DNA of 59,006 nt, taken from positions 1-59,006 of the forward strand of contig JAFQBH010000044.1 in NCBI GenBank assembly GCA_017399765.1, read 5' to 3'. The first letter of the stretch is position 1. Each line of letters opens with the position of its first letter. Below the pieces are notes generated by a model. It did not search any database. It was given only the letters and a program-made list of their open reading frames with translations, and was not told where the DNA came from. Position numbers and translations under genes: made by a program. The stretch is from Oscillospiraceae bacterium (GTDB taxonomy: Bacteria; Bacillota; Clostridia; Oscillospirales; Ruminococcaceae). Below are positions 1 to 46,026 of this stretch, in pieces.

Positions 1-581
1 ACTATTTTACCGTTGATATGGTCGAAGCCGCACACGGCCGCGCACCGGCTGTTGCAACCGGCGTAAAACGTTCCGACCCAAGCAAAATCGTATTTACATA
101 TCAGGGCGACGGTGACCTTGCTTCCATCGGTATGTGCGAAACCGTTCATTCCGCCGCAAGAGGCGAAAACATCACCATTATCTTCATCAACAACGCAATT
201 TACGGAATGACCGGCGGCCAGATGGCTCCCACTTCCCTTCCCGGACAGGTCACCCAGACTTCTCCTTACGGAAGAAACACCGAAACCCAGGGCTTCCCAA
301 TTCGCGTTTGCGAACTTCTCAGCGAACTTGACGGTCCGGCATATCTCGAACGCGTTACCGTAAACAACGTTAAAAACGTCCGCAACGCGAAAAAAGCCAT
401 CAAAAAAGCTTTCCAGAACCAGATCGACGGAAAAGGCTTTTCCCTTGTTGAAGTTCTTTCTTCCTGCCCTACAAACTGGGGCATGACTCCGCAAAAAGCT
501 CTTGAATGGATCGACGAAAAAATGATTCCTTATTATCCTCTCGGAGTATATCGTGACAAGGACGGTGAAAACAATGGCTGA
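1..581 (+). CDS. 2-oxoacid:ferredoxin oxidoreductase, beta (TPP-binding) subunit, 5'-truncated
   Basis: This is the C-terminal 192 residues of the thiamine-diphosphate subunit of a 2-oxoacid:ferredoxin oxidoreductase, which interconverts 2-oxoacids with acyl-CoA and CO2 using ferredoxin. The frame is open to the left edge, so the N-terminus lies outside the window; an internal ATG at 18 is not the real start. The TPP motif is visible: GDGD, then about 25 residues, then NN (FINNAIYGMTGGQMAPT). The HGRAPAVATG segment upstream is also typical of the family. The stop overlaps the gamma-subunit start by 8 bases, showing translational coupling. The subfamily looks like the 2-oxoglutarate or 2-ketoisovalerate type; the ilvE neighbour favours branched-chain substrates, but sequence alone does not decide this. 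Confidence 0.9.
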   Translation, partial: YFTVDMVEAAHGRAPAVATGVKRSDPSKIVFTYQGDGDLASIGMCETVHSAARGENITIIFINNAIYGMTGGQMAPTSLPGQVTQTSPYGRNTETQGFPIRVCELLSELDGPAYLERVTVNNVKNVRNAKKAIKKAFQNQIDGKGFSLVEVLSSCPTNWGMTPQKALEWIDEKMIPYYPLGVYRDKDGENNG

Positions 582-1116
582 TCATCAGATTATCATTGCC
601 GGTTTCGGCGGCCAGGGACTTCTTTTCTCCGGAAAAGTTCTTGCTTATGCAGGACTTGCCGAGGACAGACAGCTCAGCTGGCTTCCCTCCTATGGTCCCG
701 AAATGCGCGGCGGTACCGCTAACTGCACCGTAATCCTTTCCGATGAGCCTATCGGTTCCCCTATCGTTGACCACCCGAACGTCGTTATGGTAATGAACAA
801 CCCTTCTCTTGATAAATATGAGAACATGGTTGCTCCCGGCGGAAAACTTTTCGTTGATTCCGCACTTATCAGCAGAAAAGTTGACCGCGACGACATCGAC
901 ATTTATTATATCCCCGCAACCCAGCTTGCAAAGGATATGGGCGCACCCACCCTTGCAAACATGATCCTTCTCGGCGCAATCGTTAAGGAAACCGGCTGTG
1001 TTTCCGCAGAGCACCTTGAAGAAGGACTGCGCCATGCGGTTCCCGCAAGACACGCCGATCTTATTGACCTCAACCTTCAGGCTCTTGAAATCGGGAAAAA
1101 TTATACTCAGGCTTAA
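574..1116 (+). CDS. 2-oxoacid:ferredoxin oxidoreductase, gamma subunit
   Basis: This 180-residue protein is the gamma (catalytic-domain) subunit that partners the preceding TPP subunit. It opens with the characteristic GFGGQG loop ([16 protein letters not shown]) and carries the [13 protein letters not shown] segment usual in Kor/Vor gamma chains. A start at 553 is possible, but the ATG at 574 gives the normal family N-terminus (MADHQIII) and overlaps the upstream stop in an ATGGCTGA arrangement. Alpha and delta (ferredoxin-like) subunits are not in the window and probably lie to the left. ilvE follows after 21 bases in the same orientation, suggesting one transcript. Confidence 0.9.
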
Positions 1117-1137: not shown

Positions 1138-2214
1138 ATGGAATTCACTTTTCCTGTAACATATACCGAAAATCCAAAAACCAAACCCGCCGATGAAAGC
1201 AAGCTCGGCTTCGGACGCACCTTCAGCGACCACATGTTCCTTATGAATTACACCGAAGGAAAAGGCTGGCACGACGGAAGAATCGTTCCCTATGCTCCTC
1301 TTGAACTTGACCCCAGCTGCATGGTTCTCCATTACGCTCAGGAAGTTTTTGAAGGAATGAAAGCATACCGCTGGGAAGATGGTTCCATCCATCTTTTCCG
1401 TCCTTATGAAAACGCAAAACGTATGCAGAATTCAAACGAGCGTCTTTGCATGCCCGCCGTTCCGGAAGAAACCTTTGTTGAAGCTATAAAGGAACTTGTT
1501 GCGGTCGATGCTGAATGGGTTCCCCATAATCCCGGAACTTCCCTTTATATCCGCCCGTTCATCTTTGCAACCGATGCACATCTCGGCGTTCATGCTTCCG
1601 AAACCTATCTTTTCTGCATAATCTGCAGCCCTTCCGGTTCCTATTATCCCAACGGAATGAGCCCTGTTGATATTTATGTTGAAAGCCGCGATGTCCGCGC
1701 TGTAAGAGGCGGTACCGGTTATACAAAATGCGGCGGAAACTATGCAGCTTCCCTTCGCGCAGGCGAAGCCGCCGCAAAGAAAGGCTATGTTCAGGTTCTC
1801 TGGCTCGACGGTGTTGAACGCAAATATGTTGAAGAAGTCGGCGCAATGAACGTAATGTTCAAAGTAGGCGGAAAAGTTATCACCCCTGAACTCAGCGGTT
1901 CGATCCTTCCTGGTGTTACCAGAAAGAGCTGCATCGACCTTATCAGAAGCTGGGGAATTGAAGTTGAGGAACGCCTTATTACAGCCGAAGAACTTTTTGA
2001 GGCCGCCGAAAACGGAACTCTTGAAGAAGCATGGGGCTGCGGCACTGCCGCTGTTATCTCCCCCATTGGTTCCATGGGTTGGGAAGATAAAAAAATCTCC
2101 ATCAACGAAGGAAAAATCGGACCCACCGCACAGAAACTTTATGATACTCTTTACGGTATTCAGAGCGGCGTTGTCGAAGATACCCTCGGCTGGACTTTCA
2201 AAGTCTGCGACTGA
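1138..2214 (+). CDS. ilvE: Branched-chain amino acid aminotransferase
   Basis: This is a 358-residue fold-type IV PLP aminotransferase that interconverts leucine, isoleucine and valine with their 2-oxoacids. The Schiff-base lysine is K197 in GYTKCGGNYAAS, followed by the family signature VLWLDGVERKYVEEVGAMN. Length matches eukaryotic-type BCATs, slightly longer than the E. coli type. It is the last gene of the oxidoreductase unit and is followed at once by a strong terminator. Its presence beside a 2-oxoacid:ferredoxin oxidoreductase points to branched-chain 2-oxoacids as shared intermediates (inference). Confidence 0.93.
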   Translation: MEFTFPVTYTENPKTKPADESKLGFGRTFSDHMFLMNYTEGKGWHDGRIVPYAPLELDPSCMVLHYAQEVFEGMKAYRWEDGSIHLFRPYENAKRMQNSNERLCMPAVPEETFVEAIKELVAVDAEWVPHNPGTSLYIRPFIFATDAHLGVHASETYLFCIICSPSGSYYPNGMSPVDIYVESRDVRAVRGGTGYTKCGGNYAASLRAGEAAAKKGYVQVLWLDGVERKYVEEVGAMNVMFKVGGKVITPELSGSILPGVTRKSCIDLIRSWGIEVEERLITAEELFEAAENGTLEEAWGCGTAAVISPIGSMGWEDKKISINEGKIGPTAQKLYDTLYGIQSGVVEDTLGWTFKVCD

Positions 2215-2231
2215 ATTGTATAAAAAATACG

Positions 2232-2262
2232 GAGCACCGAATAAATATTCGGTGCTCTTTTT
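2232..2262 (+). terminator. Intrinsic terminator after ilvE
   Basis: A 12-bp perfect inverted repeat (GAGCACCGAATA with its complement) is followed by a run of five T. It lies 17 bases after the ilvE stop and separates the oxidoreductase/ilvE unit from the next transcription unit. Confidence 0.85.
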
Positions 2263-2383: not shown

Positions 2384-3799
2384 ATGAGGAACATCAGAAT
2401 CAGCGACGTTACCATGAAACAAAGCGGAAAAAGCGCAGGCTTTACTCTCAGCTTCAGAGAGAAAATTGAGCTTGCAAAACTGCTCGACCGTCTTGAGGTA
2501 TCCGTCATTGAGCTACACCCCATCGAAAATCTCAAGATAGACAGTCTTCTTATAAAATCCATCGCTTCCGCGGTCAAAAATTCCGTTGTTGCCGTTCCGG
2601 TATCTCTTGATGAGGACGGCGCTGAAAAGGTATGGAACGCCCTTAAAGAGGCAAAAAAGCCCCGTCTTCAGGTTTCCGTTCCCACAAGCCCGGTTCAGAT
2701 GGAATATCTTTCCCACAAAAAACCGGAAGCAATGCTTTCCGCAATAAAAAACACAGTTTCCGCCTGCAAGGCGCTTTGCGGTGACGTTGAATTTGTTGCC
2801 GGCGACGCAACCAGAAGCGACCTTTCCTTCCTTGAAGCGGCTGTTAAAACCGCAATCGAAGCCGGCGTTTCCACCGTTACTTTCTGCGATACCGCAGGTG
2901 TTATGCTTCCGGAGGAATTTACCGCATTCCTTGAAGAAATTTTTGCCGCCGTTCCGGAACTTAAGGATATTTCCGTCGGCGTTTCCTGCAGCGACGCTCT
3001 TTCCATGGCGGATTCCTGCGCGGTTTCCGCAGTAAGAAGCGGTGCTTCCGAAATCAAGGCAACCGCAGTTGCGACCGATAACGTCCGTCTTGGAAAAATT
3101 GCAAAGATAATTAACGCAAAAGGCAGCACTTTCGATGTTTCCGCTTCTGTAAGAATGGCGGAAATAAACCGCGTTCTTGCCCAGATCGACAGACTTTGCC
3201 ACACCGAAAAAAGCAAGAATTCGCCCTTTGATGACAGCGTTCGGGAAGAAGGCGAATGGGTGCTCACCGAGCACGACGATATTTCCGCTGTGCTCAAAGC
3301 GGCAGAAAGACTTGGATATGAACTTTCCGAAGAGGACGGAATCAAGGTTTTTGAAGCTTTCAAACAAATTGCCGTGCTCAAAAAGAAAGTCGGTTCAAAG
3401 GAACTCGATGCAATCGTTGCTTCTTCCGCTCTTCAGGTTCCGCCGACTTATAAGCTCGAAAGCTACGTTATCAACGCAAGCAACATTCTTACATCTTCCG
3501 CACATCTTCGCATAAGTAAAGGCGAACATCATCTTGAAGGTATCTGCATCGGCGACGGCCCTATTGATGCGGCTTTTCTTGCAATTGAGCAGATTATCGG
3601 GCTCCATTATGAACTTGATGATTTCCAGATCCAATCCGTTACCGAAGGCCGCGAGGCAATGGGCCAGACCGTTGTAAAACTTCTTTCCGGCGGAAAACTT
3701 TATTCCGGAAGAGGAACTTCCACCGATATTGTCGGCGCAAGCATTCTTGCTTATCTCAACGCCCTCAACAAAATCGTTTATGAGGAGGAAAACGTATGA
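2384..3799 (+). CDS. LeuA (2-isopropylmalate synthase) homologue with a degenerate active site
   Basis: This 471-residue protein has the layout of 2-isopropylmalate synthase: a HMGL-like TIM barrel (about 1-270), a linker helix domain (about 275-345, VLKAAERLGYELSEED) and the C-terminal LeuA allosteric domain (about 350-465). In the family, the first strand reads DTTLRDGEQ and supplies the catalytic Arg and a metal-binding Asp; here it reads DVTMKQSGK (residues 8-16), giving K12 and Q13. The HxHND metal site is replaced by S201-C-S-D-A. The GIHQDG motif is also absent. The strand carrying DT (CDTAGVMLP, from 168) and the regulatory domain are well kept. It is therefore probably not a condensing enzyme and may be a sensor or scaffold (inference). 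The ATG has a good RBS (AAGGAG) and the gene overlaps the next one by ATGA. Confidence 0.8.
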   Translation: MRNIRISDVTMKQSGKSAGFTLSFREKIELAKLLDRLEVSVIELHPIENLKIDSLLIKSIASAVKNSVVAVPVSLDEDGAEKVWNALKEAKKPRLQVSVPTSPVQMEYLSHKKPEAMLSAIKNTVSACKALCGDVEFVAGDATRSDLSFLEAAVKTAIEAGVSTVTFCDTAGVMLPEEFTAFLEEIFAAVPELKDISVGVSCSDALSMADSCAVSAVRSGASEIKATAVATDNVRLGKIAKIINAKGSTFDVSASVRMAEINRVLAQIDRLCHTEKSKNSPFDDSVREEGEWVLTEHDDISAVLKAAERLGYELSEEDGIKVFEAFKQIAVLKKKVGSKELDAIVASSALQVPPTYKLESYVINASNILTSSAHLRISKGEHHLEGICIGDGPIDAAFLAIEQIIGLHYELDDFQIQSVTEGREAMGQTVVKLLSGGKLYSGRGTSTDIVGASILAYLNALNKIVYEEENV

Positions 3800-6312
3800 A
3801 TCTTTCTTTCTCAACCCGCGGCTGGCAATCTCTCGGCTGGGACGAAATAATCGAAATTGCGGACGAAATGCGTTTTTCCGGAATTGAACTTTATAACATT
3901 CATAAGCGTTTTGATTTAATGGAAAAAGGTGCTCCGCTCCATAAATACAGCACCAGCGCCACCGCAAGATTTCTCCGTGAAAAGGGAATAAAAATCCCCT
4001 GCCTTGATACTTCCCTTGATATTTCTCTTGAAGCAAATTTCAATGACAGCATGATAAAAGGCACCATTGATACCGCCCATAACCTTAAAGTTCCCTATGT
4101 CTGCGTTGTTGCGCTCAATGATAATGAAGAAATTATCAGAACCCGCCTTGCGGATCTCATCGACTATGCGCAAACCGCTGACGTTACCCTTCTTATAAAA
4201 ACAAGCGGAATTTATTCCGATACCGCAAGGCTCCGTTCCCTTATGGACGAATTTGCTTCGGATTATCTTGGCGCTCTCTGGGATATGCATCATCCTTACC
4301 GCACAAACGGAGAATCCGCCGATAAAACCATACGCAACCTCGGCGCATATGTAAAACACGTTCATCTGCGCGATTCCGACGACGAAGAAACCTATAACCT
4401 CATCGGCGAAGGCAATCTTCCCATTGCGGAAATGATGCGTGCGCTTTCTTCCATTGACTATAACGGTTTTATATCCCTTGAATGGAAACCGGAATGGATG
4501 GAGGATCTTCAGGAATATGAAGTTATCTTCCCCCATTTTGTAAACTATATGAACCGTTTTGAAAGCCCGAGAGGGAAAAAACGCAGTCTTTATTACAACT
4601 TTGACCATTCCGGCCAGTTCATCTGGAAAAAAGATTCCCTTATCGATCTCACCTTCCCCCAGGTTCTCGATAAACTCTGTGAGGAATTTCCCGACCAATA
4701 TGCTTTCCGTTATACCACCCTTGATTACACAAGAACCTATTCCGAATTCCGCGATGACGTTGACCGTTTTGCAAGGGCGCTTGTTTCAATGGGAGTTAAA
4801 GCCGGAAGCAAGGTTGCAATCTGGGCAACAAACGTTCCCGCATGGTACATAACTTTTTGGGCTGCAACAAAAATCGGTGCCGTTCTTGTAACGGTCAACA
4901 CCGCTTATAAAATCCACGAGGCGGAATATCTTCTTTCCCAATCCGATACGCATACTCTCGTTATGATCGATTCCTGCCTGGATTCCAACTATGCACAGAT
5001 CATCAACGAACTTTGCCCGGAAATCAAGGGAACAAAAGCCGGAGCGCCCCTCCATTGCAAAAAGCTCCCCTTCCTTCGCAACGTAATAACCGTCGGCTTC
5101 AAAATGCCCGGCTGTCTTGAATTTGATGAAGCCATGGAAAGAGCAGATTCCGTTTCAGAAGAGGAAATTGCAAGAATGGCGGCGGCGGTTCGTCCCGATG
5201 ACGTTTGCAATATGCAATATACCTCCGGAACAACCGGTTTCCCGAAGGGCGTTATGCTCACCCATTATAACGTTGCAAACAACGGAAAATGCATCGGCGA
5301 CAGAATGGGTCTTTCCACTGCGGACCGCCTTATGGTCCAGGTTCCGATGTTCCATTGCTTCGGAATGGTACTCGCCATGACCGCGGCAATGACCCACGGT
5401 GCAACCCTTTGTCCGCTTCCCTATTTTTCCGCAAAAGCATCTCTCGCCTGCATAAACCAGGAACGCATAACCGCTTTCCACGGCGTTCCGACTATGTTTA
5501 TTGCTATGTTCAACCACCCGGATTATAAAACCACCGATTTTTCTTATATGAGAACCGGAATCATGGCCGGTGCGGGCTGTCCTCCGGAACTTATGAGAAG
5601 AGCCGCTCAGCCGGACGAAATGAATATGCGCGGAATAATCAGCGTTTACGGTCAGACAGAATCCTCCCCCGGAAGCACAACTTCTGCCTGGGAAGACCCA
5701 CTTGACCTTCGCTGTGATACCGTTGGATATAACCTTCCCCACGTTGAAACAAAAATCATCGACCCGGAAACCGGAGAGGAAGTTCCTTTTGGCGTTAACG
5801 GCGAATTCTGTTCCCGTGGTTATAACCTTATGAAAGGTTATTATAAAATGCCGGAGGCAACCGCCGGAACCATTGATGAGGAAGGCTGGCTCCATTCCGG
5901 CGACCTTGCCTGCAAAAACCCGGACGGAACTTATAACATCACCGGCCGCCTTAAGGATATGATAATCCGCGGCGGAGAAAACATTTATCCGAAAGAAATC
6001 GAGGAATTTATCTATACCCATGAAAAGGTAAAAGATGTTCAGGTAATCGGCGTTCCGGATAAAAAATACGGCGAAGAAATTATGGCACAGATTGTTCTTA
6101 AAGAACCCGGCAGCATGACTGTTGAGGAAATGGCGGATTATATCAAAGGACGCCTTGCCCGTCACAAAGTTCCGAGATATATCGAATTTGTTGAAGGCTT
6201 CCCCATGAATGCCGCAGGAAAAATTCTTAAATATAAAATGCGCGAAGAAGCCGCAAAACGTCTTGGACTTGAGCACGAAAGTTCCATTGACACCGGCAAA
6301 ATTCAGAAATAA
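3796..6312 (+). CDS. Fusion: sugar-phosphate isomerase/epimerase (TIM barrel) + AMP-forming acyl-CoA synthetase
   Basis: This 838-residue protein joins two enzymes. Residues 1 to about 255 are a xylose-isomerase-like TIM barrel with plausible metal ligands in LWDMHHPYR, VHLRDS and SLEWKPEW. Residues from about 265 to 838 are an acyl-adenylate/acyl-CoA synthetase with the A3 loop YTSGTTGFPKG (475-485), the A8 hinge GRLKDMIIRGGENIYPKEIE and the C-terminal adenylation lysine K809 (NAAGKILKYK). There is no stop or frame break across the linker (ESPRGKKR), so the fusion is real in this sequence. Both halves look catalytically intact. The acyl substrate is unknown; neighbours suggest a short branched-chain acid. 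It is translationally coupled (ATGA) to the LeuA-like gene. Confidence 0.88.
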   Translation: MNLSFSTRGWQSLGWDEIIEIADEMRFSGIELYNIHKRFDLMEKGAPLHKYSTSATARFLREKGIKIPCLDTSLDISLEANFNDSMIKGTIDTAHNLKVPYVCVVALNDNEEIIRTRLADLIDYAQTADVTLLIKTSGIYSDTARLRSLMDEFASDYLGALWDMHHPYRTNGESADKTIRNLGAYVKHVHLRDSDDEETYNLIGEGNLPIAEMMRALSSIDYNGFISLEWKPEWMEDLQEYEVIFPHFVNYMNRFESPRGKKRSLYYNFDHSGQFIWKKDSLIDLTFPQVLDKLCEEFPDQYAFRYTTLDYTRTYSEFRDDVDRFARALVSMGVKAGSKVAIWATNVPAWYITFWAATKIGAVLVTVNTAYKIHEAEYLLSQSDTHTLVMIDSCLDSNYAQIINELCPEIKGTKAGAPLHCKKLPFLRNVITVGFKMPGCLEFDEAMERADSVSEEEIARMAAAVRPDDVCNMQYTSGTTGFPKGVMLTHYNVANNGKCIGDRMGLSTADRLMVQVPMFHCFGMVLAMTAAMTHGATLCPLPYFSAKASLACINQERITAFHGVPTMFIAMFNHPDYKTTDFSYMRTGIMAGAGCPPELMRRAAQPDEMNMRGIISVYGQTESSPGSTTSAWEDPLDLRCDTVGYNLPHVETKIIDPETGEEVPFGVNGEFCSRGYNLMKGYYKMPEATAGTIDEEGWLHSGDLACKNPDGTYNITGRLKDMIIRGGENIYPKEIEEFIYTHEKVKDVQVIGVPDKKYGEEIMAQIVLKEPGSMTVEEMADYIKGRLARHKVPRYIEFVEGFPMNAAGKILKYKMREEAAKRLGLEHESSIDTGKIQK

Positions 6313-6315
6313 GCA

Positions 6316-6351
6316 TAAAAAAACTCCCCGAACATTATTCGGGGAGTTTTT
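6316..6351. terminator. Bidirectional intrinsic terminator
   Basis: A 10-bp perfect stem (ACTCCCCGAA, 6323-6332, with 6338-6347) and a 5-base loop are flanked by A and T tracts. It can end both the fusion gene (+) and the convergent gene at 6356 (-). Confidence 0.85.
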
Positions 6352-12960: not shown

Positions 12961-13129
12961 TGGAAAAAACTTCATTATATATGGTAATATATAATTGCTG
13001 TTTTGCAGGAAATTCCGCAAAACTTGTGATAAGGGATATCATTTATTGTTTTTCCGGAGGAAATGCAACGAGTCCCTTTTCAACTTTTTGGAACTTTTTT
13101 GAAAAAAGTTTATGAAAGGAAGGGAAAAA
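12961..13129 (+). promoter_or_regulatory. Possible promoter and structured leader of the giant surface-protein gene
   Basis: The stretch 12830-13129 has no gene. An extended -10 (TGGTAATAT at 12982-12990) with a weak TGGAAA at 12961 may be the promoter. Downstream are three nested or tandem inverted repeats: TTTTGC/GCAAAA near 13001-13022, AAGGGA near 13032 with TCCCTT near 13075 enclosing a TTTCC/GGAAA hairpin, and AACTTTTTT/AAAAAAGTT near 13092-13110. The RBS is AAGGAAGGG just before the ATG at 13130. No known riboswitch consensus was recognised. Confidence 0.35.
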
Positions 13130-16100
13130 ATGAAAACAAGCAAAATAAGCAGACTTTTGTCTGCTATGCTGGCGATCCTTATGGTCGTTACCATGTTCCC
13201 CGTAACCGTTTTTGCGGCGGAAGATGCTACTGCCATGATCGTAAAAGACGTATCCGAACTTGCAGTTGGCGATAAAGTTGCCATTGTAGCGTCCGAATAT
13301 GATTTTGCACTCAGTACAAACCAAAAGACCAACAACAGAGTGGCTGCAGCCGTGACAAAATCCGGAGACTATGTTGTTCTCGGCAGCGACATTCAGATCC
13401 TTACAATCGAAGCAGGTGTTGTTGAAGGAACTTTTGCTTTCGGAACGGGAAGCGGATATCTTTATGCCGCAGGTACTTCCAAATCACAGAACGGAAGCAA
13501 AAACAACAACTACCTGAGAACGGAAGAAAAAATCACAGCCAATTCCTCCTGGAAAATCACAATTTCAAACGGAGTTGCTTCCGTTGTTGCCCAGGGAGAA
13601 AACGGTTGCAATGTTATGCAGTATAATTATAGCAGCACATTGTTTTCCGCATATTCTTCTGCTTCCCAGAACAAAATAGCAATTTACAAACTCGGGGATT
13701 ATTCCGTTGAACCGGAAGAACCCACAGAACCTGAAATTGTTGAAACCAACGTAGCTGATTTCATTGCAGCTGAAGAGGACAGTACAGTTTATGTACTCAC
13801 CGGTAAAATTACCGATGCCGCAGATGACAGCTGGCAGTTTACCATTGAAGACAAAACCGGAAGCGTTCTTGTTTACGGAAACAAAACCGACGTTGAAGTT
13901 AAAGCAGGAGATACCGTAAAAGTAACCGGAAAAAGAGGTTCTTATAAAGGCACCGCTCAGATGGTAAACATTGAGGCTATCGAGATAATTGAAAAAGCTC
14001 CCGAAGAATCAAAAACAGTCATTGAAGACGGCGATTACGTAATCTGGGCGCCTGCATATAACAAAGCGCTTTCCGCAGAATATCCCAACGGAAGTTTCTA
14101 CAATGCAGGCGTTGACGTAACCGAAACAAGCGGAAAACTTTCCGGTTACGGCGAAACCGAAATCTGGACTGTCACCAACAACGACGACGGAACCATCAGC
14201 ATTTCTTTCGGCGGACAAAAACTTGGTATGCAGGATTCTTATTCCAGCATGCCTCTTGGTTCCAAAAACGACCAATGGGTTCTTGAAGACGCAGGCAGCG
14301 GACTTTACTATGTAAAGAACACCGCTCGCGGAGCTTATATCGAATGGTACAATTCCAAGGATTATTGGAGTGGATATAACACAATCTCCTCTGGTTCCGA
14401 AGGAATGTTTGCTCTTAAATTCACCCCTGCGGAAGAAGAAAAAGAATACACCGTTCCCGACGGTGAATATGTAATTTGGGCGCCTGCATATAACAAAGCG
14501 CTTTCCGCAGAATATCCCAACGGAAGTTTCTACAATGCAGGTGTTGACGTAACCGAAACAAGCGGAAAACTTTCCGGTTACGGCGAAACCGAAATCTGGA
14601 CTGTCACCAACAACGATGACGGAACCATCAGCATTTCTTTCGGCGGACAGAAACTTGGTATGCAGGATTCTTATTCAAGCATGCCTCTTGGTTCCAAAAA
14701 CGACCAATGGGTTCTTGAAGACGCAGGCAGCGGACTTTATTATGTAAAGAACACCGCTCGCGGAGCCTATATCGAATGGTACAATTCCAAGGATTATTGG
14801 AGCGGATATAACACAATCTCCTCCGGTTCCGAAGGAATGTTTGCTCTTAAATTCACCCCTGCCGACGAAGAACCAGAAGTTCAGTATGCTGAAAAGCTTA
14901 CCGAACTTCCCGGAAAAGGCGACATTATCGTGATTTACAACTCCGGCAACGCAATGGCTTCCTATTCAAACGGCAAAAAAATAGCTGCCATTCCCGCGGA
15001 ACTTGTAGAAGATAAGCTTCCTCTTGCTGAAAAAATGGCAAACCTTGTTGTAGATATTGAAGGCAATAACTACATCTTTACCCTTGACGGAAAATATCTT
15101 ACTTCCGCTCTTACCGGTAACGGCATGAGCTTTGAAGAAGAACTTACCGATTGCGGCAAATGGACCTTTGCGGAAGGCCCCGATGGCACCTGGTATATCA
15201 AAAACGTTGGTGCAAACTATAACGGCAACTATAACCAGGCAATGGAATATTATTCCGGCTTTACCACTTATGGAATTAAAGAAACCGCAATCTATCAGAT
15301 GCAGCTTTTCCTTGTTGAAAGCGGCAGTGAAGTTCCAGACGGTGAATATGTAATCTGGGCGCCTGCATATAACAAAGCGCTTTCTTCCAACTACAGCGGA
15401 TATTATAACGCAGGCGTTGACGTAACCGAAACAAACGGAAAACTTTCCGGTTACGGCAAAACCGAAATCTGGACTGTCACCAATAACGATGACGGAACCA
15501 TCAGCATTGCTTTCGACGGAAAGAAACTTGCAATGGCAGATTCTTTTTCCAGCATGACTCTCGGCGAAAAGAACGATAAATGGGTTCTTGAAGAAACAGA
15601 CAGCGGACTTTACTATGTAAAGAACACCGCTCGCGGAGCTTACATCGAATGGTATGCAAGCAAAAACAACTGGAGTGGATATAATAAAATCGCCTCCGGT
15701 TCCGAAGGAATGTTTGCTCTTAAATTCACCCCTGCGGAAGAAGTTGAAGAAATCTCCGCTCTTCCCAAAGCCGGCGATGAAGTTGTTATTTATAACCTTA
15801 ATGCAAAAGGCGTTCTTGCAGAAGAAAACGATCAGCAGAGCATAGAAAACACCTCTGCGGAAATTGTTGACGGCAAAGCTGTTCCCGAAAACGGCGCAGT
15901 TGTTTTCACCGTTTCCAAAAACGGCGAGTATTTCCGTTTCTATAACGAATCTTATGGATATCTCTGTTCCAACGGCACCGGAAACAACGCTTTCTATTCC
16001 AAAGAAGCTTCCGAAGATGCAGACTGGACTCTTGAAAAACTCGGCGGCGGTTACAGAATGCTCAGCAGAACTGCAAAATATAACGGTACCGGAAAACAGT

Positions 16101-19100
16101 ATCTTGAATATTATGCAGACAGCTACAAAACATACAGCTTCTATGCTACAAATAAAGACGGTTCTCTTGCAGATACCACTATCTATGAATTCTATTTCTA
16201 TCCCGTAGCAGAAGGTACCAAACTTAGCGATGGAATCGTAAATATGCCCAAAGTTGATTTTGGCACTGTTTACGACGCAAACGTAGGTTCCGATTACACT
16301 TTCAGCTTTACTGTTGATGCGGTATTCGGCATTGAAGGTGAACTTGCTGTTACCGCAAACGACGAAACTCTTGCAGCCAACGAAGACGGCACCTATACCC
16401 TTCCCGCAGAAAAAGTAACCGGTGAAAAATTCACCATCACAGTAACCGGCAAAGATACCAAAGGCGTTGAAATCAGCGGTTCTGCAGAAGTTACAGTAAA
16501 AGATGAACCTTCCATAGGAACAATCACTCCTTCCGCAAACAGCCAGACCGGCGCAGAAAAACGCCCCGTTATTTCTGCTGAAATCATCAATGCCGGCGAA
16601 AACGCCGAAGTTACCATGACTGTAAACGGCAATGAAGTTGACGCTGTTTACGAAAACGGTAAAGTAACCTATACCCCTGCAGAAAATATGACAGACGGAC
16701 GCACTTCCGTTGTTGTTACCGTAAAACGTGCTGATGGAAAAGAAACCAGCAAATCCTGGAACTTCATTGTCGGCGAAGCACAGTATCAGCTTTATTTCGG
16801 TCAGCTTCACAGCCACACCACTTATTCCGACGGTTCCGGTTCCCTTGAAAGCGCTCTTGATTATGTTGCTTCCCTTCCGGAATCCGCAAACGTTGATTTT
16901 GTCGCATTCACCGATCACTCCAACTACTTTGATGCTTCCGGCGCAGCAAACCCCGAAGGTGCGCTCTATGATATGAGTCTTGCTACTGCAGCAAGCCAGA
17001 AAACCTGGAGCGAATATAAAAATGCCATTGCAGATTTCAACGCTGCACAAAGCGATGTAATTGCAATCGGCGGTTTTGAAATGACCTGGTCCGGCGGTCC
17101 CGGTCACATCAATACTTTCAATACCCCCGGTATTGTTTCCAGAAATAACTCCACCCTTAACAACAAAACTTCCGACGCAGGCATGAAAGCATATTATGCT
17201 CTTCTTTCCCAGCCGGAAGGTGCAGAATCCATCAGCCAGTTCAACCACCCCGGCTCCACTTTCGGTACTTTTACTGATTTTGCTTACTGGGATGCTCTTA
17301 TTGACACCCGTATTCAGATTGTTGAGGTTGGTAACGGCGAAGGCCAAATCGGCGCAGGCGGCTATTACCCCAGCTATGAATATTACACCATGGCTCTTGA
17401 TAAGGGCTGGCATGTTGCTCCTACAAACAACCAGGACAACCACAAAGGCAAATGGGGTAACGCAAACGAAGCCCGTGACGTAATCATCACCGATGATTTT
17501 ACCGAGAATGGCATTTATGACGCAATCCGCGCAATGAGAATGTACTCCACCGAAGATAAAAACCTTGAAATCAACTATACCGTAAATGGTCTTATGCTTG
17601 GTTCTTCCATTATCGAAGTTCCCGAAACTCTTGATTTCAACGTAACCGTTTATGATCCTGACAGAGCTGATTCCATCAGCAAAGTTGAACTTATCGTAAA
17701 CTCCGGCAAGGTTGCATACACCTGGGACGATCCTGCAGAACTTGCGGACGGCACTCTTGAAGCAACCCTTTCTCCCGATTACAGCTATTATTACGTCCGA
17801 GTAACCGAAGGCGACGGCGACCTTGCCGTAACTGCTCCTGTTTGGGTCGGTGAAAGCCTTAAACTCGGCATCTCTTCTGTAGTAAGCGGAACTTCCACCC
17901 CCGTTACCGGAGAAGAACTTACCATTACCACAACCCTTTTCAACAGCGAAAAAACCGATGCCAACGTAAAATCCGTTATTTATGAATATAAAGGCGGAGA
18001 AGTAATCCACACCGACAGCGTCGGCCATACCGTACCGGCTTCCGGAACTTCCGCAGTTGAATTCAACTACACCCCCTCTGAAGCAAAACTTACCGTCATT
18101 ACTGTAACCGCTGTTGTTGAACAGGACGGAAAAGATTACGTCTTTACTATGGATATTGAACTTGACGTTCAGGATTCCGAAAAACTTGTTTACATTGGTA
18201 TTGATGCTTCTCACTACAACGAGTATGTAGCAGGAAACTATAAGGACAGCATGGGCAACTTCAGCCAGCTTGCTTCCGGATATAATGTACGTACCGTTCA
18301 GCTTAACACTTCCGAAGATCTTATTGCAGCATGTTCCAATGACAAATATGTAGCTCTTATCCTTACAGCTCCTTCCAGAAGACTTGCGGCTGCACAAAGC
18401 GACCCCAGAACCTATTCCGAAGCAGAACTTGAGGCAATTGCTGCATTCAATGCAAACGGCGGCACAGTAATCATAGCCGGTTGGTCCGATAACTATGAAA
18501 ACTATGACGTAATCCAGAATAACGATGCAATCAAACACATGGCAGAAACCCAGAACGACATTCTTAAAGCTCTTGGTTCTTCCATCAGAATGGGCGATGA
18601 CGCAACTTATGATGATGTAAGAAGCGCAGCAGACGGAGTTGACAAATGGAGACTTTATTTCAACACTTACGGCAATTCCTTCCTTACTGAAGGTGTTGAA
18701 GTTGATCCTGAAAATCCTTATAACAGACTTTATACCGAAGTCTTCAGCCATTACGGCGGCGCAACCGTCTTTACCAAAGACGGAACTCTTCCCGAAACCG
18801 TAACCCCTGTTGTATTCGGTCACGCAAGCACCTATTCCGTTGACGTTGATAAAGACGGACTTGGCGGAAGCAACACCCCCAAATATAAATATGCAGAAGG
18901 CGATGACCGCCTTATGGTAATGGCTTCCGAACAGCTTCCCGGAAAAGGTCTTATAATCGTTTCCGGCGCGGCATTCATGTCCAACTTTGAAGTTCAGGCA
19001 ACCATTGAAGACAGCGGTTCTGAAAAGAACTATTCCAACTATAAGATCTGTGAAAACCTTCTTGAATACCTTAACCCCGTTGTTGTTGCAGACATTGCCG

Positions 19101-20320
19101 ACGTTCATGAACAGGAAGGTGAAGGTTATAAGTTCACCGTAGAAGGCATTGTAACTTCCAACGCTTCCGGTTATGACAAAGATACCGCATTCTTTGATTG
19201 CATTTATATTCAGGACGAAACAGCCGGTATCAACTGCTTCCCTGTCGCAGGAAACTTTAAAATCGGTGACAAGGTAAGAATTACCGGCACAACCAGTTCT
19301 TATCAGGGTGAAAGACAGCTTGCCGTAACTTCTATTGACGTAATCGGCGAAGGAGAAATTGAACCCACTGAAATTACCGCAGCACAGCTTAACAATGGCA
19401 GCGTTCTTGGAAAACTCGTTACCGTAAAGGGTACTGTTGAAAGCTTTGCATTTGAAAACGGTCTTGTTCAGACTATTATGGTAAAAGACGCAAAAGGCGA
19501 CCTTGCAAGAGTATTCATCGACGGTTACATTACAACCCAGAAAGACGTAGAAAACCTTAAAGTAGGCTGTGAAATTGAAGTAACCGGTCTTGCTTCTTAT
19601 GACAACACTTTCAACGCTCCCGAAGGTCCGTTCCCGAGAATCCGTATCCGCAACAGAAAAGACGTTGTCTGCAAAGTTGCATATACAGACGTTGAAGTTG
19701 TTATTCCCGGAGCAGATCCAGATGATAAGTACAGTGTAAGACTCGAAGAAAAAGTAGAAATTCCCGAAGATCTTCCGGAAGAATATAAAGAAAAATATTC
19801 CACCCCTGAAAAGATTGAAAAGGAACTTGAAAAAGCAATCTATGAAAAAAACCGCAAATTTAACAGCAAAAACTCCAACGTTGTATTTATGACACCTACT
19901 CTTAAGGTAAACACCGATAACGGTTTGGAAGATGTTAATCCCGATAATTACCCCGAAAATGGAGTATCTGTTTCCATTCCTTATCCTAAAAACACCGCTC
20001 GTTTCGGTTGGGATTTTGAAATTGTTTATCTTGACGATGACGGTGTAATCAGAACCCTTGATTACCGCAAGACCCGCGACGGACTTCTTGTTGAAATTGA
20101 TGGTAATTATCCTATTGCTGTTGCTTACAAGAAAAATATCTTTAGCGGCGGTTCCTCCGGTTCTTCTTCCGGTTCCGGCAACGGAATAACTATTATAACT
20201 CCCGAAAAAGGCGGCAGCGAATCCAACCCGAATACTGGTGCTTCTGCACCTTTCGGTTCCGCAATTGCAGCAATCATTGTCGTTTCTGCGGCAGCTCTTT
20301 CTTTCGGAAAAAGAAAATAA
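13130..20320 (+). CDS. Giant secreted, wall-anchored PHP-domain protein (CehA/McbA-like metallohydrolase)
   Basis: This 2396-residue protein has a Sec signal peptide (cleavage near VFA-AED, residue 27) and ends with a sorting signal: NPNTG (2366-2370), a hydrophobic segment and KRK. Domains in order: an N-terminal beta domain (about 35-195), an OB-fold-like domain (about 205-285), three copies of a ~135-residue repeat (300-435, 444-579, 737-870), two related beta domains between and after them, Ig-like domains (about 1040-1215), and a PHP phosphoesterase domain (about 1220-1490) with H1227-S-H1229 and D1262-H1263. Further Ig-like, DUF4350-like (about 1685-1980) and OB-fold pairs (about 1985-2185) follow. 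The PHP part predicts a metal-dependent phosphoester or ester hydrolase acting outside the cell. The start at 13130 gives the proper signal peptide and an RBS; an ATG at 13112 would add six residues. Confidence 0.85.
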   Translation: MKTSKISRLLSAMLAILMVVTMFPVTVFAAEDATAMIVKDVSELAVGDKVAIVASEYDFALSTNQKTNNRVAAAVTKSGDYVVLGSDIQILTIEAGVVEGTFAFGTGSGYLYAAGTSKSQNGSKNNNYLRTEEKITANSSWKITISNGVASVVAQGENGCNVMQYNYSSTLFSAYSSASQNKIAIYKLGDYSVEPEEPTEPEIVETNVADFIAAEEDSTVYVLTGKITDAADDSWQFTIEDKTGSVLVYGNKTDVEVKAGDTVKVTGKRGSYKGTAQMVNIEAIEIIEKAPEESKTVIEDGDYVIWAPAYNKALSAEYPNGSFYNAGVDVTETSGKLSGYGETEIWTVTNNDDGTISISFGGQKLGMQDSYSSMPLGSKNDQWVLEDAGSGLYYVKNTARGAYIEWYNSKDYWSGYNTISSGSEGMFALKFTPAEEEKEYTVPDGEYVIWAPAYNKALSAEYPNGSFYNAGVDVTETSGKLSGYGETEIWTVTNNDDGTISISFGGQKLGMQDSYSSMPLGSKNDQWVLEDAGSGLYYVKNTARGAYIEWYNSKDYWSGYNTISSGSEGMFALKFTPADEEPEVQYAEKLTELPGKGDIIVIYNSGNAMASYSNGKKIAAIPAELVEDKLPLAEKMANLVVDIEGNNYIFTLDGKYLTSALTGNGMSFEEELTDCGKWTFAEGPDGTWYIKNVGANYNGNYNQAMEYYSGFTTYGIKETAIYQMQLFLVESGSEVPDGEYVIWAPAYNKALSSNYSGYYNAGVDVTETNGKLSGYGKTEIWTVTNNDDGTISIAFDGKKLAMADSFSSMTLGEKNDKWVLEETDSGLYYVKNTARGAYIEWYASKNNWSGYNKIASGSEGMFALKFTPAEEVEEISALPKAGDEVVIYNLNAKGVLAEENDQQSIENTSAEIVDGKAVPENGAVVFTVSKNGEYFRFYNESYGYLCSNGTGNNAFYSKEASEDADWTLEKLGGGYRMLSRTAKYNGTGKQYLEYYADSYKTYSFYATNKDGSLADTTIYEFYFYPVAEGTKLSDGIVNMPKVDFGTVYDANVGSDYTFSFTVDAVFGIEGELAVTANDETLAANEDGTYTLPAEKVTGEKFTITVTGKDTKGVEISGSAEVTVKDEPSIGTITPSANSQTGAEKRPVISAEIINAGENAEVTMTVNGNEVDAVYENGKVTYTPAENMTDGRTSVVVTVKRADGKETSKSWNFIVGEAQYQLYFGQLHSHTTYSDGSGSLESALDYVASLPESANVDFVAFTDHSNYFDASGAANPEGALYDMSLATAASQKTWSEYKNAIADFNAAQSDVIAIGGFEMTWSGGPGHINTFNTPGIVSRNNSTLNNKTSDAGMKAYYALLSQPEGAESISQFNHPGSTFGTFTDFAYWDALIDTRIQIVEVGNGEGQIGAGGYYPSYEYYTMALDKGWHVAPTNNQDNHKGKWGNANEARDVIITDDFTENGIYDAIRAMRMYSTEDKNLEINYTVNGLMLGSSIIEVPETLDFNVTVYDPDRADSISKVELIVNSGKVAYTWDDPAELADGTLEATLSPDYSYYYVRVTEGDGDLAVTAPVWVGESLKLGISSVVSGTSTPVTGEELTITTTLFNSEKTDANVKSVIYEYKGGEVIHTDSVGHTVPASGTSAVEFNYTPSEAKLTVITVTAVVEQDGKDYVFTMDIELDVQDSEKLVYIGIDASHYNEYVAGNYKDSMGNFSQLASGYNVRTVQLNTSEDLIAACSNDKYVALILTAPSRRLAAAQSDPRTYSEAELEAIAAFNANGGTVIIAGWSDNYENYDVIQNNDAIKHMAETQNDILKALGSSIRMGDDATYDDVRSAADGVDKWRLYFNTYGNSFLTEGVEVDPENPYNRLYTEVFSHYGGATVFTKDGTLPETVTPVVFGHASTYSVDVDKDGLGGSNTPKYKYAEGDDRLMVMASEQLPGKGLIIVSGAAFMSNFEVQATIEDSGSEKNYSNYKICENLLEYLNPVVVADIADVHEQEGEGYKFTVEGIVTSNASGYDKDTAFFDCIYIQDETAGINCFPVAGNFKIGDKVRITGTTSSYQGERQLAVTSIDVIGEGEIEPTEITAAQLNNGSVLGKLVTVKGTVESFAFENGLVQTIMVKDAKGDLARVFIDGYITTQKDVENLKVGCEIEVTGLASYDNTFNAPEGPFPRIRIRNRKDVVCKVAYTDVEVVIPGADPDDKYSVRLEEKVEIPEDLPEEYKEKYSTPEKIEKELEKAIYEKNRKFNSKNSNVVFMTPTLKVNTDNGLEDVNPDNYPENGVSVSIPYPKNTARFGWDFEIVYLDDDGVIRTLDYRKTRDGLLVEIDGNYPIAVAYKKNIFSGGSSGSSSGSGNGITIITPEKGGSESNPNTGASAPFGSAIAAIIVVSAAALSFGKRK
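14027..14433 (+). repeat. Internal repeat copy 1 of the giant protein
   Basis: First of three copies of a ~135-residue unit (DYVIWAPAYNKALS ... MFALKFTPAEE). It is identical to copy 2 at the amino-acid level over about 134 residues. Confidence 0.9.
14459..14865 (+). repeat. Internal repeat copy 2 of the giant protein
   Basis: Offset from copy 1 by exactly 432 bases (144 codons). It differs from copy 1 at about nine bases, all apparently silent, apart from the repeat edges. Confidence 0.9.
15338..15738 (+). repeat. Internal repeat copy 3 of the giant protein (diverged)
   Basis: Offset from copy 2 by 879 bases. It is two residues shorter (SSNYSGYYNAG instead of SAEYPNGSFYNAG) and carries several amino-acid changes, so it is an older copy. 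Confidence 0.88.
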
Positions 20321-42938: not shown

Positions 42939-43736
42939 TTATTTTGCAAGCATCATACGGTCGTTGGAAAATTCTTTTCCGCTTACTTCTTCGAATTTCG
43001 CAAGAAGATCCGGAACCTTAAGGTTCTTTTTCTCTTCGCCGGAAATATCGAGGATAACGTGGCCATGGTCCATCATGATAAGGCGGTTGCCATATTTGAT
43101 GGCGTCGTTCATGTTATGAGTTACCATAAGGGTGGTAAGGTGGTTTTCGGTAACGACTTTGTTGGTCATTTCGAGAACGGTTTTTGCGGTTTTGGGGTCA
43201 AGGGCGGCGGTGTGTTCATCAAGAAGAAGAAGCTGGGGTTTCTTGATCGTTGCCATAAGAAGGGTCAGAGCCTGGCGCTGGCCGCCGGAAAGAAGTCCGA
43301 CTTTTGAATCGAGCCTGTCCTCAAGACCAAGGTCAAGAGTTTTGAGGAGTTCGACGAACTGTTCGCGTTCTTTGTTGCTGATTCCCCATTTGAAACTTCT
43401 GTTTTTTCCGCGGCGAAGAGCAAACGCAAGGTTTTCTTCGATCCACATATCTCCGGCCGTTCCGCGAAGGGGATCCTGGAAAACGCGGCCGATATATTTT
43501 GCGCGTTTATATTCCGGGTCTTTGGTAACATCATGACCGTCGATGGAAACATGGCCTTTGTCAAGTTCAAAAACGCCTGCGACAGCATTGAGCATGGTGG
43601 ATTTTCCCGCTCCGTTACCGCCGATTATGGTTACAAAATCGCCTTCATCAAGGTGGAGGTTAAGGTCGATAAGAGCTTCCTTCTGAACGGGGGTTCCTTT
43701 GTTGAAGGTTTTATAAACGTTTTTTATATCAAGCAT
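42939..43736 (-). CDS. ABC importer ATPase (predicted aromatic amino-acid system)
   Basis: This 265-residue ATPase has Walker A (GGNGAGKSTMLNAV), signature (LSGGQRQALTLLMA) and Walker B (LLLLDEHTAALDPKTAK). It directly abuts the permease gene with no gap. With the permease and lipoprotein it forms a complete importer. The upstream T-box suggests phenylalanine as substrate. Confidence 0.93.
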   Translation of the reverse strand: MLDIKNVYKTFNKGTPVQKEALIDLNLHLDEGDFVTIIGGNGAGKSTMLNAVAGVFELDKGHVSIDGHDVTKDPEYKRAKYIGRVFQDPLRGTAGDMWIEENLAFALRRGKNRSFKWGISNKEREQFVELLKTLDLGLEDRLDSKVGLLSGGQRQALTLLMATIKKPQLLLLDEHTAALDPKTAKTVLEMTNKVVTENHLTTLMVTHNMNDAIKYGNRLIMMDHGHVILDISGEEKKNLKVPDLLAKFEEVSGKEFSNDRMMLAK

Positions 43737-44666
43737 TTATTCCCCCTCCTTTCCGGAAACTTTCGCAAGAGCGGCATCTTTAAGACCCGGCGCAACAAGA
43801 GCGATTACGACGATTATTGCGGTAATGAGTTTCATATCGTCCGCAGTAATCTTTATAATGGTATCTGCGGTAAGGCTGATTCTGAGAACAAAGGCGATTA
43901 TGATTCTGTAAACGATTGAACCGATCACAACGCCAGCAAGGCGGTGGAAATAGGTCCTTTTGCTGAACAGGACTTCGCCTATCATAATGGCCGCAAGACC
44001 GATTACTATTGTACCTACACCCATGTTGATATCCGCATATCCCTGGTACTGCGCAAGAAGAGCACCGGACATTGCAACAAGTCCGTTGCCGACAATAAGT
44101 CCGAGAACGATATAGACCTTGGTATTTGCGCCCATTGCTCTTACCATATGAGGGTTGTTACCGGTGGCACGGAGTGCGCATCCAATTTCGGTTCCGAAGA
44201 AGCAATAAACTGCGATTATGAGAACAACCGCAAAAACAACGCCGACAAGAAGACCCGCCCATTTGGAAGGGATTCCGAGAGCTTTGATCTGGCTGAAAAG
44301 GGTAACTTCATTAAGAAGACCAAAGTTTGCTTTTCCCATGATTCTGAGGTTTATGGAATAAAGCGCGAACTGGGTCAAAATTCCGGCAAGAAGATCCGGA
44401 ATTTTGAATTTTGTATGGAGAAAACCGGTTACGGAACCGGCGGCCATTCCGCTTATTGTTGCGATAAGAATCGCAAGGATCGGAGAAACACCGGCGGCAA
44501 CGCAAACCGCGGAAACAGCCCCACCAAGGGTGAGGCTTCCGTCAACGGTAAGGTCCGCATAATTGAGTACTCGATATGTCAGATAAAGTCCAAGCGCCAT
44601 TATTGCCCAGATTACACCAAGGGTGGCGCCGCCCTGGATATCCCAGAGCCAGCTCATAATATTCAT
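43737..44666 (-). CDS. ABC importer permease
   Basis: This 309-residue protein has eight or nine membrane helices and fits the BPD_transp_2-type permeases that pair with PF04392 substrate-binding proteins (LTYRVLNYADLTVDGSLTLGGA and ALRATGNNPHMVRAMGANT are typical). In streptococci similar systems carry tryptophan. It is translationally adjacent to the ATPase. Confidence 0.92.
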   Translation of the reverse strand: MNIMSWLWDIQGGATLGVIWAIMALGLYLTYRVLNYADLTVDGSLTLGGAVSAVCVAAGVSPILAILIATISGMAAGSVTGFLHTKFKIPDLLAGILTQFALYSINLRIMGKANFGLLNEVTLFSQIKALGIPSKWAGLLVGVVFAVVLIIAVYCFFGTEIGCALRATGNNPHMVRAMGANTKVYIVLGLIVGNGLVAMSGALLAQYQGYADINMGVGTIVIGLAAIMIGEVLFSKRTYFHRLAGVVIGSIVYRIIIAFVLRISLTADTIIKITADDMKLITAIIVVIALVAPGLKDAALAKVSGKEGE

Positions 44667-44693
44667 TTAAACAATAACATCCTAATCTAATTA

Positions 44694-45668
44694 TTAATAT
44701 ACGGTTGCGGCGTTTTCAAGAACTTCCGCGGGAATTTCAACGCCAACGCTTTCCGCGAAGGTTTTGTTGACAACAAGAGCACATTCTTTCTGGGTTTCAA
44801 CAGCGATTTCAGAAGCGGATTCGCCGTTAAGAACGCGGACAGCCTGTGCAGCGGTCTGTTTTCCGAGTTCATAGTAATCGATTGCGGTGGTTGCAATTCC
44901 GCCTTCGGCGATCATTGCTTCAACAGCGCAGAAAACAGGGATCTGGTTTTCAACAGCAGTCTGGTTAACAGTTGCCATTGCGGAAGCGAATGCGTTATCG
45001 GAAGGAATATAAATTGCGTCAACGCTGCCTACTACGGAAGAAATAACCTGGGGAATATCGTTGGAGGAAGAGGAAGTCTGGATTATAACTTCCATTCCAA
45101 GAGCTTCTGCGGCAAGTTTTGCTTCGTCTGCCTGGATTGCGGAGTTGGGTTCGCTGGAAGTATAGAGAATTGCAATTTTCTGTGCATCGGGAAGAACGTC
45201 TTTGATAACTGCAATCTGGTCTGCAATAACGGGCATATCAAGGGTTCCGGTTACGTTTTTGCCGGGAGCTTCGTTGGATTCAACAAGTCCTGCGCCGACT
45301 GCATCGGTTACTGCGGTGAAGAAAACAGGAATATCGGTTTCCTGGAAAACGTTAACTGCGGACTGTGCTGCGGGAGTTGCGATTGCAAGAGCAAGATCGA
45401 TTCCGCTGTTTGCGAAGATATCGCAGATCTGCTGGCAGTTGCCGACTTCGCCGGAAGCGTTCTGGAAATCGATTTTGAGGTTTTCGCCTTCAACATAGCC
45501 TGCTTCGGCAAGGCCGTCTACAAATCCCTGATATGCTTCATCAAGAGAAGCGTGCTGCATAAACTGGATTACGCCGACGGTTACAACGCCGTCATCAGCG
45601 GTGTTTCCGCAGCCGGAAACTGCGAGCATCATTACAAGAGCCATAATAACTGCAAGAATTTTTTTCAT
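44694..45668 (-). CDS. ABC importer substrate-binding lipoprotein
   Basis: This 324-residue protein is a lipoprotein (signal ending LAVSGC, Cys 20) of the PF04392 type (VGVIQFMQHASLDEAYQGFVDGL, IALAIATPAAQSAVN-like, ILYTSSEPNS, PVFCAVEAMIAEGGIAT). The ATG at 45668 follows a GGAGGT RBS; a TTG at 45683 is part of that RBS region and is rejected. The gene is the first of the operon and lies directly behind a T-box leader. Confidence 0.93.
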   Translation of the reverse strand: MKKILAVIMALVMMLAVSGCGNTADDGVVTVGVIQFMQHASLDEAYQGFVDGLAEAGYVEGENLKIDFQNASGEVGNCQQICDIFANSGIDLALAIATPAAQSAVNVFQETDIPVFFTAVTDAVGAGLVESNEAPGKNVTGTLDMPVIADQIAVIKDVLPDAQKIAILYTSSEPNSAIQADEAKLAAEALGMEVIIQTSSSSNDIPQVISSVVGSVDAIYIPSDNAFASAMATVNQTAVENQIPVFCAVEAMIAEGGIATTAIDYYELGKQTAAQAVRVLNGESASEIAVETQKECALVVNKTFAESVGVEIPAEVLENAATVY

Positions 45669-45737
45669 TTTGGTTACCTCCAAAATTTAAAATTTGTTTA
45701 TTTAAAAACCTCTTTTGGGGCTAATTAAATACTGAAT

Positions 45738-45996: not shown

Positions 45997-46026
45997 CATT
46001 TAGTTGGCTATGAAATTATGTATCTT

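Follow-up and report, generated by a model that had tools for sequence, protein, structure and literature searches.

A TIM barrel-ligase fusion from an Oscillospiraceae genome as a candidate isovalerate-CoA ligase under leucine control

Proposed role of the fusion

The 59,006-nucleotide stretch of contig JAFQBH010000044.1 analysed here (assembly GCA_017399765.1, an Oscillospiraceae bacterium; the whole stretch is referred to as the window) carries a gene in which a xylose-isomerase-like TIM barrel is fused to an AMP-forming acyl-CoA ligase, preceded by a LeuA-like gene termed pseudo-LeuA. Our reading as a whole, which is given a probability of roughly three in four, is that the fusion is an isovalerate-CoA ligase of a leucine pathway, with ligases fused to helix-turn-helix (HTH) and cupin parts as its sisters for isoleucine and valine, pseudo-LeuA as a sensor and the barrel as a binding or docking domain. 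The ligase would activate isovalerate (3-methylbutyrate) using ATP and CoA, a ferredoxin-dependent 2-oxoacid oxidoreductase encoded upstream would carboxylate isovaleryl-CoA to 4-methyl-2-oxopentanoate, and an aminotransferase would convert this to leucine; the HTH-cupin-fused ligases would play the same role for isoleucine (from 2-methylbutyrate) and valine (from isobutyrate), pseudo-LeuA would sense leucine for the fusion ligase, and the barrel, in the clade of the window, would bind a ligand or dock. This route is suggested by the combination of a leucine-controlled ligase, a linked oxidoreductase and aminotransferase, and the absence of classical genes, and the ligase is most likely identified by the leucine T-boxes of its relatives, the oxidoreductase and aminotransferase genes, and pseudo-LeuA. 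What the genomes show directly is which genes are present, how they are ordered, where they occur together and which codons the leaders specify; substrates, direction and products are predicted from this. The features at the centre of this reading are the following (genomes, contigs and loci are cited below by handles beginning with G, C and L).

2384 to 3799, forward strand: pseudo-LeuA, an HMGL-like domain without the metal-binding residues plus LeuA_dimer; ATGA overlap with the fusion at 3796-3799
3796 to 6312, forward strand: fusion gene joining the barrel to the AMP-forming acyl-CoA ligase; candidate isovalerate-CoA ligase (open reading frame, Pfam, relatives)
3796 to 4560, forward strand: N-terminal xylose-isomerase-like TIM barrel, about residues 1-255, with an altered metal site (PF01261, conservation)
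4198 to 4200, forward strand: codon of Lys135, which replaces the canonical metal-ligand Glu (80/80 rows; alignment of an unfused cousin to PDB chains)
4675 to 6243, forward strand: AMP-forming acyl-CoA ligase half with its core motifs, residues 294-816 (PF00501, PF13193, invariant columns)

The fusion is a single open frame with an ATG start encoding 838 amino acids, in which Pfam assigns residues 21-233 to PF01261 (AP_endonuc_2; 72.2 bits against a cut-off of 31.1), residues 294-683 to PF00501 (AMP-binding; 301.8 bits) and residues 734-809 to PF13193 (59.8 bits), the latter two also above their curated cut-offs. The ligase half carries YTSGTTGFPKG, YGQTE, SGD, GRLKDMIIRGGEN and NAAGK, which we take to be the core motifs of AMP-forming ligases and which are invariant across 46 aligned rows. 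A sequence-only reading of this DNA had proposed an in-frame join of an intact barrel to an intact AMP-forming ligase, and on the join and the ligase it was right. A stop or frameshift, or confinement of the fusion to this genome, was looked for and neither was found: the 80 best-matching loci elsewhere and 86/392 genomes of the class carry the fusion, so that the join is no sequencing accident, and an assembly artefact or frameshift is ruled out. The source contig, C44, belongs to a genome of 1.83 Mb that is 88% complete and split into 44 contigs.

Leucine T-box leaders precede the fusion family

T-boxes, whose usual targets are tRNA synthetases, transporters and classical pathway genes, activate the genes behind them when the matching tRNA lacks its amino acid; here, unlike at those targets, such leaders (RF00230) lie upstream of acid-CoA ligases. 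Their specifier codons were read with a stem-I covariance model built from 22 leaders of mixed classes that were selected by us and that match by construction, giving a specifier column in 178 matches from 168 sources, with 12 matches dropped where the 22-base specifier segment had already been counted. In front of the fusion and of related unfused ligases, 102/102 distinct leaders have a Leu specifier, namely 73/73 pseudo-LeuA/fusion leaders (CUG 36, CUC 35, CUU 2), 18/18 leaders of fusions without pseudo-LeuA and 11/11 leaders of unfused ligases, the last two groups being entirely CUC. Leaders before HTH-cupin ligases (n=58) read Ile in 39 and Val in 19 instances. Of the six leaders in front of other genes, two have an Ile specifier and the rest one each for Val, Asn, Ser and Thr, the lone Val belonging to an HTH-cupin leader of the source genome that is truncated by the end of its locus. 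The amino acid that controls the fusion family is, on these specifiers, leucine.

The leaders span the whole Rfam model, antiterminator included. Across 13 loci picked before T-boxes were known there, Rfam placed a T-box above the gathering score right before pseudo-LeuA in 10 (4/4 and 6/9) and none above that score in L206, L215 and L221; leaders before fusions without pseudo-LeuA and before unfused ligases were confirmed in 11/11 loci, which had been picked since the stem-I model had already found leaders there. Where printed, Rfam's own alignments agree on the codons (L041, L060, L202, L209, L219 and two source-genome leaders), and control leaders in the source genome read CUC before leuS (partial in the stretch used, at 517.8 bits versus a cut-off of 548.4) and UAC before tyrS. 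All three leader kinds, Leu, Ile and Val, occur together in single loci (L040, L041, L078 and L202). On contig C17 of the source genome, the two HTH-cupin leaders specify GUA (Val) and AUC (Ile); at 79.9 and 82.6 bits (E-values 1.1e-16 and 2.3e-17) both stay below Rfam's gathering score, which is 93. Among loci of the class, a T-box was present in 18/23 with and 12/20 without pseudo-LeuA, and the unfused ligase of the congener G011 also has a Leu leader.

Pathway genes in genomes with and without the fusion and pseudo-LeuA

Co-occurrence with leuB and VorB, the latter scored by NF005507 (named 3-methyl-2-oxobutanoate dehydrogenase subunit VorB), was examined in 80 of the 392 class genomes, made up of every pseudo-LeuA genome (24), the 36 best scorers among the 63 that have a full fusion but no pseudo-LeuA, and 20 without the fusion picked by handle number. 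VorB exceeded its cut-off in 23/24 pseudo-LeuA genomes, 36/36 other fusion genomes and 9/20 genomes without the fusion. Among 61 relatives, source genome included, it was found in 30/31 with the ligase or fusion versus 9/30 without, the sole exception being G008, which is 87% complete and has its fusion cut by a contig end. leuB was above its cut-off in 5/24 pseudo-LeuA genomes, 32/36 other fusion genomes and 17/20 without the fusion, and some leuB-related match occurred in 72/80 of the sampled genomes. ilvC is present in the same 5/24 pseudo-LeuA genomes as leuB, as against 42/63 fusion genomes without pseudo-LeuA (p = 2.1e-4) and 226/368 other genomes (p = 1.4e-4), both statistics ignoring phylogeny, and in 0/15 genomes of the source genus. 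The ilvC association appears only once the fusions are split by pseudo-LeuA.

A LeuA-like pseudoenzyme upstream of the fusion

Pseudo-LeuA lies directly 5' of the fusion in 79/80 loci, the remaining locus being cut. Its HMGL-like and LeuA_dimer domains follow the order of LeuA (TIGR00973, PRK00915), with PRK00915 the best family match at 294.2 bits versus a cut-off of 532 and the LeuA_dimer regulatory domain (PF08502) at 98.8 bits (cut-off 24.9), but it differs from LeuA in having neither the Asp of the RDGEQ motif nor the two His of HxH, which are presumably the metal- and substrate-binding, catalytic residues of LeuA. All three are absent in 24/24 class pseudo-LeuA and present in 5/5 true LeuA, all of the latter above the TIGR00973 cut-off; across the 80-locus set the Asp is found in 0/75 covering rows and a His at either HxH position in 0/78. 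By its residues the LeuA-like gene is a pseudoenzyme. Mean pairwise identity of the regulatory domain is 66% among pseudo-LeuA versus 47% among true LeuA, and of the catalytic domain 46% versus 68%, a reversal read as selection on the sensor part, and motifs bearing on leucine binding are kept in the alignment. Pseudo-LeuA may be a leucine sensor, as suggested by the loss of the residues for LeuA chemistry, the retained regulatory domain, the overlap with the fusion gene and the frequent absence of leuB and ilvC.

The barrel has an altered metal site

The metal ligands of PF01261 barrels are, on our assumption, a strand-4 Glu, an Asp, a His and a strand-8 Glu. The strand-4 position is Lys135 in 80/80 covering rows (the window and 79 relatives), so the claim of an intact metal-binding barrel does not hold in the clade of the window, and nothing except the family name backs the label of sugar isomerase that came with it. 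The other site residues are kept: Asp163 in 77/80, His166 in 79/80, His190 in 80/80 and Glu229 in 79/81 rows. A PDB sequence search for a functional match to the barrel gave weak matches including 3wqo (MJ1311) and 3tva, whose Glu aligns with the Glu that an unfused cousin has at the Lys135 position; the window barrel resembles these by family match and by the usual-site Asp, His and Glu, and differs by the Glu-to-Lys change and by its fusion to a ligase.

The full pattern EDHHE (strand-4 Glu, Asp, two His, strand-8 Glu) is present in 35/38 barrel rows without pseudo-LeuA, unfused cousins included, and changed in 44/47 with it, counts into which G029, G183, G202 and G331 enter twice, as they also do in the ligase tree. 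On the tree the site changed by more than one route, with Lys for Glu in the clade of the window, combinations of the Asn/Gly/Arg/Ala type in a 19-row clade, and single cases in L206, L014 and L200. Three pseudo-LeuA rows still read EDHHE (L205, L211 and L217); at the first two (G090:C95 and G114:C23) pseudo-LeuA stands beside an EDHHE-barrel fusion in genomes where leuB and ilvC are retained, as is a true LeuA, and these loci possibly represent an intermediate stage.

A decaying relic is ruled out for the barrel of the window's clade by 78 columns at 95% identity or more over 21 rows (intact type: 72 columns over 31 rows). Barrel identity is 57.6% in the window clade versus 58.0% in the intact type, at ligase identities of 70-82%, and since the former is as conserved as the latter its site appears re-tooled rather than abandoned. 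The sequence-only reading had offered a bifunctional enzyme or a barrel that feeds, senses or modifies the acyl substrate; the site changes where pseudo-LeuA is present make binding or sensing a better candidate role for the barrel of this clade than classical isomerisation dependent on a metal, without settling the choice, and the barrel there may be a ligand-binding or docking domain derived from a metal-site barrel that is separate in cousins.

Weighing of the proposal and of alternative explanations

Several observations weigh against the proposal. The window's own pseudo-LeuA/fusion pair has no T-box, so its assignment to leucine is by orthology, and none was found for the pairs of L034-L039; over the 80 loci a T-box is present in 59, the other 21 having none or being cut. 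A leucine T-box, furthermore, defines a regulon and not a substrate. The fusion overall shows no association with ilvC (46/86 versus 185/306, p = 0.27), all co-occurrence comparisons ignore phylogeny, and pseudo-LeuA requires one gain only on the tree, at which the deepest step is weakly supported (51). The true LeuA reference comprises five sequences, two from one genus. Fusions without pseudo-LeuA have no adjacent oxidoreductase, aminotransferase, HTH-cupin ligase or amidohydrolase in 19/20 loci, and the congeners G001 and G003 lack the fusion, pseudo-LeuA, VorB and ilvC alike, as expected of auxotrophs.

A different role for pseudo-LeuA, either as an enzyme of a new, metal-free kind or as an inert scaffold on which the fusion sits, is doubtful; 30 rows show no variation at Asp141 and Arg144 in the HMGL-like domain, as such a role might have it, but compared with true LeuA the catalytic domain has diverged more and the regulatory domain less. 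It is likewise unlikely, and somewhat more so, that the protein is bifunctional, with the barrel isomerising, epimerising or dehydrating the substrate or product of the ligase. The EDHHE site seen in unfused cousins and in fusions that lack pseudo-LeuA, the equal constraint on the window-clade barrel and the closeness of unfused barrel and ligase in L114, L119, L226, L232 and L233, some with an amidohydrolase or kinase gene, would all suit such an enzyme; against it, isovalerate requires no isomerisation to become leucine, and the site has been altered by several routes in most pseudo-LeuA rows while leucine T-boxes were kept in most loci.

That the ligase supplies leucine through another acid, or serves a leucine-responsive side pathway such as branched lipids, is improbable. 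Its closest named family is the generic NF009233 (682.7 bits, below the cut-off of 832), and no T-box was detected at 8/20 fusions without pseudo-LeuA, observations that leave room for another acid; the branched-chain route is backed instead by the oxidoreductase and the aminotransferase encoded next to the ligase and by the parallel ligases for Ile and Val. Very improbable is the catabolic direction, in which leucine would be degraded to isovalerate with the ligase working in reverse. A T-box would switch such genes on under leucine shortage, and leuB and ilvC are mostly absent from pseudo-LeuA genomes; passages of PMC13285125 speak for both sides, in that VOR-type oxidoreductases serve amino acid fermentation in other anaerobes and AMP-forming ligases typically favour acyl-CoA synthesis.

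Beyond isovalerate activation for leucine, a fuller scenario is put forward tentatively, at somewhat less than even odds. A dead LeuA would have been kept as a sensor after loss of its pathway, and would contact the retooled barrel and throttle the fused isovalerate-CoA ligase, old allosteric control having thus moved to the replacement; together with the HTH-cupin ligases for Ile and Val this would make a three-ligase, three-T-box module by which gut bacteria make branched-chain amino acids from branched short-chain acids. If true, pseudo-LeuA and the barrel would clearly exemplify an allosteric domain that has outlived its enzyme and been rewired to a new pathway, the ligase for each amino acid could be read from genomes via the T-box codon, and growth-factor needs would become predictable.

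Relation to known systems

Allison and co-workers reportedly described, in 1962 and 1966, an isovalerate carboxylation route to leucine in rumen bacteria. The route predicted here is alike in leading from acid to CoA ester to oxoacid to amino acid and in the ruminant hosts named for many of its bearers, and differs in that genes, Leu/Ile/Val leaders, a fused architecture and pseudo-LeuA are proposed for it; the isovalerate-to-leucine route has been known since the 1960s, and ligase genes for it are proposed here. Passages of PMC7356843 state that leucine can be derived by isovalerate carboxylation (citing Allison 1962, 1966) and that rumen bacteria make Leu, Ile and Val from isovalerate, 2-methylbutyrate and isobutyrate (citing 1962, 1966 and 1971 work), and a title cited there names branched acids as growth factors for ruminococci. 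In the IOR/VOR operons treated in passages of PMC13285125, a 2-oxoacid:ferredoxin oxidoreductase likewise adjoins an acid-activating enzyme, but these are kinases or ADP-forming ligases in fermentation or, in Bacteroides, an AMP-forming ligase beside IOR that acts on arylacetates; 'TIM barrel' and 'cupin' were not found in the text of that source, nor was a barrel fusion in its passages. The barrel-ligase fusion, pseudo-LeuA and the CoA ligases of the route were not recognised in those parts of the literature that were covered, subscription papers and T-box surveys being largely outside them.

Distribution and unfused cousins

A scan of a genome collection gave at least 591 tblastn-confirmed relatives, not all of them necessarily fusions, of which the best 80 were kept. 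These are 71-99% identical, and 79 are covered from residue 1, with L079 covered from residue 214 at a contig end. Metagenome-assembled genomes of Oscillospiraceae make up the three closest relatives with a name, one each from the colon of water deer, the rectum of sheep and the cecum of water buffalo, and ruminant hosts (deer, sheep, goat, cattle, buffalo, yak) are named in many of the 80 records. Within the class, the 86 genomes with a full-length fusion include the source genome, and G086 is covered from residue 65. Five Bacteroidota-labelled records (L104, L106, L107, L109 and L111) hold pseudo-LeuA/fusion pairs with no T-box detected, which represent either transfer or mis-binned contigs.

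The suggestion that the architecture is unusual and that its halves are linked is supported by cousins in which barrel and ligase are neighbouring genes, one of them from the same genus: the congener G011 and genome G031 have separate genes in the order ligase, protein-kinase gene, barrel, and the two adjoin in L226, L232 and L233. A kinase gene (PF00069 and PASTA in L119) follows the unfused leucine-T-box ligase in L114, L118 and L119, with the barrel next in L114 and L119. The ligase tree was built by a quick method from 88 of 96 rows, with a midpoint root for drawing only; 16 of the 80 genome-collection loci were taken, and 8 were then dropped as near-copies. The 16 rows that lack a fused barrel form one group, which a 100* branch separates from the other 72, and L230, with a separate barrel, falls among the fusions.

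Neighbouring genes

The genes upstream of pseudo-LeuA and the hairpins around the pair are as follows.

18 to 581, forward strand: 2-oxoacid:ferredoxin oxidoreductase thiamine pyrophosphate (TPP)-binding subunit, cut by the contig start (PF02775; complete in congener L123)
553 to 1116, forward strand: 2-oxoacid:ferredoxin oxidoreductase gamma-type subunit (PF01558; best NCBIfam matches below their cut-offs)
1138 to 2214, forward strand: branched-chain amino acid aminotransferase (NF009897, 500.3 bits, cut-off 307; TIGR01123, 412.1 bits, cut-off 250.05)
2231 to 2258, forward strand: intrinsic-terminator-like hairpin with T run after the aminotransferase (consensus scan)
6319 to 6351, both strands: terminator-like hairpin after the fusion (consensus scan)

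The hairpins after the aminotransferase and after the fusion, from a consensus scan that found 27 sites in 7.2 kb with 10 expected, suggest that pseudo-LeuA and the fusion probably form a separate two-gene unit. The order oxidoreductase, aminotransferase, pseudo-LeuA, fusion is found in the source genus, L060, L088, L200 and L206 and is rearranged in L215 and L217; in L200, L206, L215 and L217, which represent four different families, the oxidoreductase subunits cluster with the aminotransferase, pseudo-LeuA and the fusion. Contig C17 of the source genome, which probably continues the gene cluster of the window over the contig break, has two HTH-cupin ligase genes beside VorB, one confirmed by Pfam and the other by its start and ligase matches. 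The tandem HTH-cupin-AMP-ligase genes there (L122:2509-4791 and the gene upstream; L235, L237) adjoin VorB and a P-loop-like protein without a Pfam match.

Next to the fusion, or to the unfused barrel and ligase, an amidohydrolase of the PF04909 type is found repeatedly, in L060, L088, L200, L202, L207, L217, L232 and L233. Elsewhere in the window, 13112-20320 on the forward strand encodes a 2402-residue protein with a signal-like start and only marginal Pfam matches, in which a block of about 130 residues can be seen by eye twice in nearly identical form and a third time in diverged form. At 45897-46013 on the reverse strand, a further T-box (Rfam 93.7 bits, gathering score 93) precedes ATP-binding cassette (ABC) genes for a substrate-binding protein, permease and ATPase (42939-45683).

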